Below are positions 1 through 59,565 of a stretch of 64,000 nucleotides of DNA, in pieces. How positions within the stretch are numbered: position 1 is the stretch's first letter; the number at the start of each line of letters is the position of its first letter. The translations under genes were made by a program, and so were the position numbers. The stretch is from positions 1 to 64,000 of the forward strand of contig JASGUU010000044.1 of assembly GCA_030057555.1 (NCBI GenBank), read 5' to 3'. The notes below the pieces were generated by a model. That model was not told the origin of the DNA and did no database searches. It worked only from the letters and a program-made list of their open reading frames with translations. Source of the stretch: Bacillota bacterium (GTDB taxonomy: Bacteria; Bacillota; Clostridia; Saccharofermentanales; Fastidiosipilaceae).

Positions 1-110
1 AACCCGTCCTCGCGGACTAAGGCTCCAAGGCTATGTACCGGCTGGGCGCTACCCCTTTACCAGGTGAGGAATTTCACCTCACTATCTCCCTTGCACCGAA
101 CTGGCGCACG
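1..110. other. Unassigned sequence at left window edge
   Basis: No gene is recognised here. One plus-strand frame is open from base 1 and runs into the repeat array, but its translation resembles nothing I know and the frame owes its length to the repeats. A short inverted repeat (GGTGA-GGAATT-TCACC, about 64-79) can be seen. It could be the end of a mobile element lying outside the window, but nothing here proves that. Confidence 0.3.
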
Positions 111-452
111 CCAAATCATTTTTTGGATTACTCTTCGTTTTGACCAGAAACCACCCTTTTGTGGTCAAGATGGGGACTTTGCCAAATCATTTTTTGGATT
201 ACTCCTCGTTTTGACCAGAAACCACCCCTTTGTGGTCAAGATGGCGACTTTGCCAAATCATTTTTTGGATTACTCTTCGTTTTGACCAGAAACCACCCTT
301 TTGTGGTCAAGATAGCGAGTATTCCAAATCGTCTTTTGGAAAACTCCTCGTCTTGACCACCAGAAGTCCGCCAGCTGCTTTTCTCCCCATGCCGGCCGCC
401 CTCCTGACGTGCTCACCCGCTCCCGACAGTCCTGACGTGCACCCGGACCTCC
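111..452 (+). repeat. 71-bp palindromic repeat array with conserved tail, copy 1
   Basis: The motif CCAAATC recurs at 111, 182, 253 and 324, an exact 71-bp period. Three complete imperfect palindromes (25-base arm, 6-base loop, 25-base arm) occupy 162-217, 233-288 and 304-359, preceded by a truncated one. They are separated by 15-base spacers of near-identical sequence. After the last palindrome comes a tail of about 90 bp (360-452) that is also found beside copies 2 and 3. The array lies just past the stop of tgt, in antisense orientation to that gene. Arm mismatches at arm positions 8, 10 and 12 are mostly G.U wobbles when the plus strand is read as RNA. Confidence 0.85.
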
Positions 453-12741: not shown

Positions 12742-14079
12742 ATTCCACTGATCCTCTCGTCGCCTGTCCAAACCCTGTTGACACTTTCTTCCACGTATTG
12801 GGCTTCAGCTTAGGCGTCTGATCGGACATGAAGCCGGCGGATATTCCGCCCTGTTTTACCGCGATATGCCGTCAGCTGCCGGTATCGAGCTGATTCGCGG
12901 GAATTCCGGGAACAGGGAGGCCGCTGCCCTGCTGTACGGGTCAATTCTGAGATGCATCATGAAACGAAAAACATGAAAAGCAGAACCATGAGGCAGTTTC
13001 TGTGAACAGATGGATTTTTCCCAGCTATCCGGAAACCCATGGTGTTTTATATGAGCGAGGAGAGATCCTGCAACAACGAAGGAATTTCATCTTCAGGAGC
13101 ACGGAAAGCCTCGCGGGAGAACGGTTTATCATGATGAACATGCTGCCAAAGAGATGTTCATGGTTCAAGTGACGTAATATGCTCTTCTAAATGATCTGAG
13201 GTCTTCCGGCTTATAGCTCCCTCGAAACAGAACTCCCAAATGTGTGCGTACAACCTCATATCTGAAACAGAAGCCTTGAGGGAGATGATATAGAAATAAA
13301 GTATCCAGACAGTTCCCCTGACCCAATCCGCACAAATCACATCTGCGGCTGCGATGAAGTGGATGAAGTACTGCAGCAGAATGGCGACAGCGTCAGGAGT
13401 GCACGGCAAAATGTTGGAAAGCGGGTGAGCATGCCAGAAGGACGACTGGCAGGGGAAGAAAACAGCCTGCGGATTTCTGGTGGTCAAAACGAGGAGAAAT
13501 CCAAAAAGCGATTTGGATTACTCGCCATCTTGACCACGAAGGGGCCATTTCTGGTCAAAACGAGGAGAAATCCAAAAAATGTTTTGGCAAAGTCCCCATC
13601 TTGACCACAAAGGGGGCGTTTCTGGTCCAAACGAGGAGTAATCCAAAAAGTGATTTGGATTACTCGCCGTCTTGACCACGTGGGGCACCGAGACCGGGTG
13701 TGTCTGGACCAGCATTATCTTACGGCATCAGAGCAATGGAACCTGGACCACTTTACTGCATCCTTGAAAGTGCCAGGTCGTGCCTGTCATCCTCGTCGCT
13801 CGCTCTCCTATTCCTGTGCCATTCACATATCGGCCTTTATGAGGCAGATCGTTACGCAGGCGATTGGAGAAGTGATCTTCCCTTACGCCTGAGTACAAGC
13901 TGCGCTAAAACCACGGTGTTTCAGGCGTTTGAGGAAGATTCGAAAAAGGGTTTTGCTCGTCCCGACAAATATGACGTGCACCCCCAGCGTCAAGGTCATA
14001 TGGCGTATTTTGCCGCTTTGGTGCAAACTACCGGGATGAAGGCCAGCTGCTGTTTGCACAAAAGGAGATATGGAAACAA
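12742..14079. other. 1.3-kb intergenic region between comM and ychF
   Basis: No credible gene was found between these divergent genes. Short frames at 13158-13487 (minus) and 13700-14083 (plus) lack ribosome sites and recognisable sequence, and the first one begins inside the repeat tail. The region contains repeat copy 2 at 13389-13680. The part from 12742 to 13388 looks like unconstrained sequence and could be the remains of a lost gene. Confidence 0.6.
13389..13680 (-). repeat. 71-bp palindromic repeat array with conserved tail, copy 2
   Basis: Three palindromes lie at 13481-13536, 13552-13607 and 13623-13678, again with an exact 71-bp period, a 6-base loop and 15-base spacers. The order is inverted relative to copy 1: the tail occupies about 13389-13480. 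The arms of the third palindrome match at 21 of 25 positions. Wobble pairing again favours the strand read from array to tail, here the minus strand. It stands alone in a non-coding region. Confidence 0.85.
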
Positions 14080-59010: not shown

Positions 59011-59565
59011 TGTATCTATCCTCTAGTCATGGCATTTCGCATGGGCGCGTGCGGTGCCGGCAGGGGCACACGGCGTCCCAATATGATAACAGACGGAAAA
59101 CGGGCGTGACACAGATAGCGTTACGGGAGGGGTGCACGTCATATATGCCGGGAAGAGTAAAACCATTTTCGAGTCTTCCTCAGACACCTGATACACAGAT
59201 GCTTTAGCGCAGCTTGTGTGCAGGCATATGGATGATCACTTCAATCATGGCCTGCGCAGCGTTCGGCCTCACAGGATGCCGGAATGTGAACGGCAAGCGA
59301 CAGGACAGCGGGCAGTGAGGATGACTGGAACGACCTGGCACGTTCCAGAAGATTCTGAGGCGATCCTGACAAGCAGCGCACCACGCTGCGGCGCGCCCTT
59401 CTTCGTGGTCAGGATGGCGAGTAAGGCAAATCACGTTTTGAATCTCTCTTCGTTTTGACCACCATAAATCCGCGAGCTGCTTTTCTTCCCCTGCCAGCCG
59501 CACTCCTGGCAGCAAACCCGCTTCCCGACATTCCTGACGAGCACCCCTGTACGGGATCGCGACGG
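59011..59565. other. Intergenic region between radC and the VanY-like gene
   Basis: The region holds repeat copy 3 (59406-59553). The rest has no credible gene; open frames here overlap the repeat or lack ribosome sites. Confidence 0.55.
59406..59553 (+). repeat. Palindromic repeat with conserved tail, copy 3 (single unit)
   Basis: One palindrome (59406-59461; arms of 25, loop TCACGT) is followed by the same tail of about 90 bases that follows the arrays of copies 1 and 2. The tail ends about 12 bases before the radC stop, again at the 3' end of a minus-strand gene. The arms have decayed more here: four wobbles and five mismatches. Confidence 0.75.

Follow-up and report, generated by a model that had tools for sequence, protein, structure and literature searches.

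To our knowledge, MITEs that carry minisatellites have rarely been described in bacteria. BOX elements, known from Streptococcus pneumoniae and S. suis, are modular (A-Bn-C): the stem-loop modules in the middle vary in number, and a fixed 5' and a fixed 3' module flank them; in S. suis other flanking modules occur around the same BOX core, and no clear target-site duplications have been reported (PMC3049150). BrickBuilt of Porphyromonas gingivalis is a MITE with a leader, a tail, terminal inverted repeats, and a tandem array of variable length; it is multicopy, intergenic, and limited in host range, its 23-nt units have no spacers between them, and its duplications vary in length (PMC4596501). 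These two systems are the closest in layout to the repeats described here, which occur at three loci in a window of 64,000 nucleotides from a Bacillota bacterium (contig JASGUU010000044.1). An earlier note on this DNA held that the repeats resemble no known family, which is too strong, as both BOX elements and BrickBuilt have a head-repeat-tail layout (PMC3049150, PMC4596501). The likeness is one of layout. With BOX elements, the repeats have in common a modular layout with a variable stem-loop middle, but their terminal inverted repeats are clear, their target sites show duplications of 9 bp, and they belong to an unrelated Bacillota genus. With BrickBuilt, they have in common the MITE layout, in which terminal inverted repeats surround a variable tandem array present in multiple intergenic copies, and a narrow host range, whereas their units are 71-bp palindromes, their 15-bp spacers are conserved, and their duplications measure 9 bp. 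What sets them apart from both is a long, palindromic unit, a duplication fixed at 9 bp, and an association with a group II intron.

The palindrome seen in the earlier note, with 25-nt arms and a 6-nt loop on a 71-bp period, is present at all three loci and on the strands given there, and the sequence bears out its unit numbers: three plus a partial one in copy 1, three in copy 2, and one in copy 3 (Table 1). A single hairpin arm, with up to three mismatches allowed, matches the window nine times, compared to 0.00 matches expected from shuffles. The dismissal of a CRISPR array also holds, since the 15-bp spacers are nearly identical across units and loci rather than unique. The elements are larger than stated there, as a head of ~300 bp had been overlooked; with the head included, copy 2 extends over 13397-13984 and copy 3 over 59129-59547. 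The first unit of copy 1 is indeed partial, being in fact a unit interrupted by a group II intron (window 1-109). The genes next to copies 1 and 3 are tgt and radC, as proposed (Pfam), and the stop codons of these genes are 35 and 18 bp, respectively, from the tail ends; tails facing gene ends are, however, no genome-wide rule, and genes beside the copies face both directions.

Table 1. Positions of the three hairpin-element copies and of the intron end in the window
Feature	Positions	Strand	Basis or detail
Group II intron 5' end (apparently endonuclease-less), within copy 1 hairpin array	1-109	-	Contig begins inside intron; ten genome copies 98-100% identical, junctions read
Copy 1 hairpin array	110-359	+	Partial unit 110-146 cut by intron; hairpins 162-217, 233-288, 304-359
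Copy 1 tail	360-444	+	Right terminal inverted repeat 421-444 at its end
Copy 2 target-site duplication, first copy, CAGCGTCAG	13388-13396	.	Flank comparison
Copy 2 tail	13397-13479	-	Degenerate right terminal repeat
Copy 2 hairpin units, three	13480-13679	-	13481-13536, 13552-13607, 13623-13678
Copy 2 head	13680-13984	-	Left terminal repeat 13960-13983
Copy 2 target-site duplication, second copy, CAGCGTCAA	13985-13993	.	8/9 match
Copy 3 target-site duplication, first copy, GTTACGGGA	59120-59128	.	Flank comparison
Copy 3 head	59129-59405	+	Left terminal repeat 59130-59153
Copy 3 hairpin unit, single	59406-59461	+	Palindrome matches
Copy 3 tail	59462-59547	+	Right terminal repeat 59523-59546
Copy 3 target-site duplication, second copy, TGTACGGGA	59548-59556	.	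7/9 match

Aligning the copies revealed the conserved head of ~300 bp, and the same alignment shows that the conserved tail stops sharply at GACGTGCACCC. In a full copy, terminal inverted repeats of 23-24 bp enclose this head, the palindromic units (1-7 of them), and the tail, which measures ~85-95 bp. The repeat, GGGTGCACGTCANNNNTGTCGGGA, occurs inverted at both ends. The ends read GGGTGCACGTCA; the outermost bases are GGGTGCACGTCATATTTGTCGGGA on the left and, as the reverse complement, GGGTGCACGTCAAGAATGTCGGGA on the right, and each element is bounded by a left and a right end that pair in inverted orientation. We catalogued 44 copies with array and tail. Both ends are readable in 26, which measure 362-743 bp and hold 1-5 units; arrays reach 7 units. 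Nothing obvious is encoded in the copies, and none of the 44 lies inside a predicted coding frame.

A search of the whole genome, as the earlier note had proposed, located the 71-bp array at more than 40 places in the host, whose assembly (G000) is a 90-contig draft broken at these repeats. Matches to the terminal repeat pattern number 68 in the host and 64 in a congener (G001; "Bacillota bacterium MAG87_KBP," GenBank JASGUW01), compared to 0 for reversed-pattern controls, and ten other genomes of the family gave one match only, with three mismatches. For the array, 56 other relatives from the family and order gave nothing except one 30-base match, there was no match in phages, plasmids, or viral contigs, and Rfam holds no family for the hairpin array itself. 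The exact inter-hairpin spacer pattern was found, among 84,980 species, in the congener's species alone, in a collection from which the host's own records may be absent. As far as seen, the family is limited to one genus.

The elements have the features of a MITE: terminal inverted repeats, a fixed (though often decayed) 9-bp duplication, and short, transposase-less, multicopy, intergenic copies. Across 19 independent insertions, the 9-bp flanks match at a mean of 4.37 of 9 positions, compared to 2.22 for re-paired flanks (z 6.5). The duplication is perfect (9/9) at C66, where it reads GCAGTATTT, and equally so at C6 once shifted by one base (CGTGCGCGT); individual duplications often match at just 5-7 of 9 positions, and some copies have none. 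At C6, the congener has both genes and the intergenic sequence but lacks the hairpin element, which makes this an empty orthologous site. It is the one clean empty site obtained; of five other flank pairs, four were not usable, three being split over contigs and one (C36) having a different element in the congener. The comparison at the radC border is not decisive because the congener carries its own element at a different place, ~190 bp past radC. One intergenic region (G001:C209:7327-8170 and G000:C36:25065-25658) is occupied in both species, but by distinct members of the family, which apparently inserted independently. The terminal repeats, the 9-bp duplications, and the empty site point to a cut-and-paste element that is moved in trans. 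Together with the lack of coding capacity and the dispersal of the copies, of which there are dozens, they support the suggestion of a non-autonomous mobile element. We conclude that the repeats are, very probably, a MITE-type family of non-autonomous DNA transposons with an internal tandem-hairpin array.

Elements of this kind would have been cut and inserted via their ends alone by a DDE-type transposase supplied in trans, and the element interior would be free to change because the enzyme would use only the ends. Among ends within 3 mismatches, we saw no copy with a transposase gene and no autonomous partner. A congener locus of 1.8 kb with both ends (L125) was considered as an autonomous copy and rejected, as it has no long transposase-like frame and contains another palindrome array; an IS256-type mobilizer was rejected because that transposase family is absent from the host genome. 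One host locus (L167, G000:C20 near 131700) has an IS3-like frame pair, recognized by eye, inside a hairpin-element remnant. Slippage at the palindromes, or unequal exchange there, may have raised and lowered the number of units locally; most of the elements are probably old and decaying by now. Units are more alike within arrays (0.896) than between them (0.856), as expected of local duplication followed by decay.

Other repeats occur beside or within these elements. A second repeat, of ~450-1480 bp and with ends ACACGTCCGGCACCC, was observed at L011, L019, L022, L026, L049, L054, and L085. Several hairpin-element copies lie at one fixed point of this repeat and were apparently transported with it, the two forming a composite mobile unit. 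Tandem-palindrome arrays of other, unrelated kinds, repeating every 60, 70, or 92 bp, also occur in the congener (L067, L098, L113, L122, L125, L133, and L184); those at L098, L122, and L125 are in elements with the same terminal repeats, and others look like separate nested repeats.

In Sinorhizobium meliloti, the endonuclease-less group II intron RmInt1 usually homes to a site within an insertion sequence. The intron that interrupts copy 1, of which the window holds the reversed 5' end, likewise homes to a resident multicopy mobile element, with the difference that its home is a noncoding, hairpin-bearing MITE. Near-identical copies occur in hairpin units on host contigs C15, C21, C31, C34, C38, C41, C50, C62, C63, C65, and C87, and many contigs of the host assembly start or stop inside this intron. 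One near-identical copy (L189) matches the Rfam group-II-D1D4-6 model with 62 bits, and the model for group II domains V/VI is matched by the intron 3' ends. A reverse transcriptase/maturase is encoded in one assembled copy; the protein appears to be without an endonuclease domain, and of the solved structures GsI-IIC is nearest to it, other group II proteins being almost as near. Wherever the 5' junction is readable (9/9), it is at the same hairpin position: the exon ends with TCCAAA-loop-TTTGG(C/A), which is the unit's apical stem-loop, placing the insertion point after CCAAA-N6-TTTGGC. The readable 3' exons (4/4) start with AAAGTCC and continue the unit. For group IIC and IIC-attC introns, the insertion point follows a terminator or attC stem-loop (PMC7923331, PMC4424553), and the domain V triad of group IIC is CGC (PMC7923331). 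The intron here has in common with them an apparently endonuclease-less protein, a fixed short junction, and insertion directly after a stem-loop, as seen in 9/9 readable 5' exons; in contrast, its hairpin belongs to a MITE and is neither terminator nor attC, and its domain V (GAGCCCGGTGCGG) has AGC in place of CGC. The intron has spread recently, with the apical stem-loop of the unit as its insertion site; a possible reason is that the hairpin, when the DNA is replicated, offers it a suitable single-stranded target.

Three other explanations of the arrays deserve consideration. Repeats of the REP/BIME type, to which the earlier note likened these loci, are palindromic, multicopy, and intergenic as well, and would be mobilized by a REP-associated tyrosine (Y1, RAYT) transposase. 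REP/BIME units, however, measure 20-40 bp and not 71 bp, and neither the 9-bp duplications nor the long terminal repeats, with ends of the DDE-transposon type, are in keeping with this origin. Y1 transposase (Y1_Tnp, PF01797) has no match in the host genome, whereas control genomes do match, and we give the explanation almost no credence. Alternatively, the array could be mainly a platform on which the group II intron lands, array and intron having coevolved. All nine readable 5' junctions fall within units that make up, by a rough estimate, well under 1% of the genome, as such a platform would lead one to expect. Yet the introns are 98-100% identical and the arrays old and diverged; therefore, the arrays predate the intron, which exploits them. 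The congener is rich in arrays and has one weak RT match only. Coevolution as a platform is thus very improbable.

The third explanation sees in the hairpin array a functional module of RNA or DNA (e.g., a transcribed regulator of neighboring genes or an mRNA stabilizer) that is selected and only incidentally mobile. Spacers are conserved between the two species, and units fold better on the head-to-tail strand than on its complement in both host (89 of 99) and congener (128 of 174). That strand would fold better as RNA because many of its non-Watson-Crick cells are G-U (in the host, 275 G-T versus 62 A-C). This bias is a hint of a transcribed role of the array, but the G-U excess depends on few positions. 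The apical stem covaries in the congener, where it occurs in three matched versions (TCCAAA/TTTGGA, TGGCAA/TTGCCA, and TACAAA/TTTGTA) and the double-change score is 0.081, compared to 0.024 when shuffled and 0.029 at best when slid. However, this covariation derives from few subfamily switches, and quasi-palindrome correction in replication could yield the same pattern without selection. Host arms pair at 0.851, and column composition predicts 0.848; there is therefore nothing to suggest that pairing is maintained in single units. Orientation relative to neighboring genes is mixed, and on balance we consider a selected module unlikely. A role of the hairpins as terminators was rejected, as there is no orientation rule and no terminator-like site at copy 3.

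Within the MITE reading, we tentatively raise the possibility, itself rather doubtful, that the intron represents a lineage outside canonical IIC whose sole target is the tandem-palindrome hairpin of a MITE, the array being a dispersed platform that absorbs the retroelement away from genes. The elements join clear transposon ends and duplications to tandem 71-bp hairpins in two species, which makes it possible to trace how arrays grow and are lost. A young group II intron that keeps strictly to the hairpin provides a natural test of whether a DNA hairpin is read or only base-pairing sequences. One mobile element can thus become the safe harbor of another.
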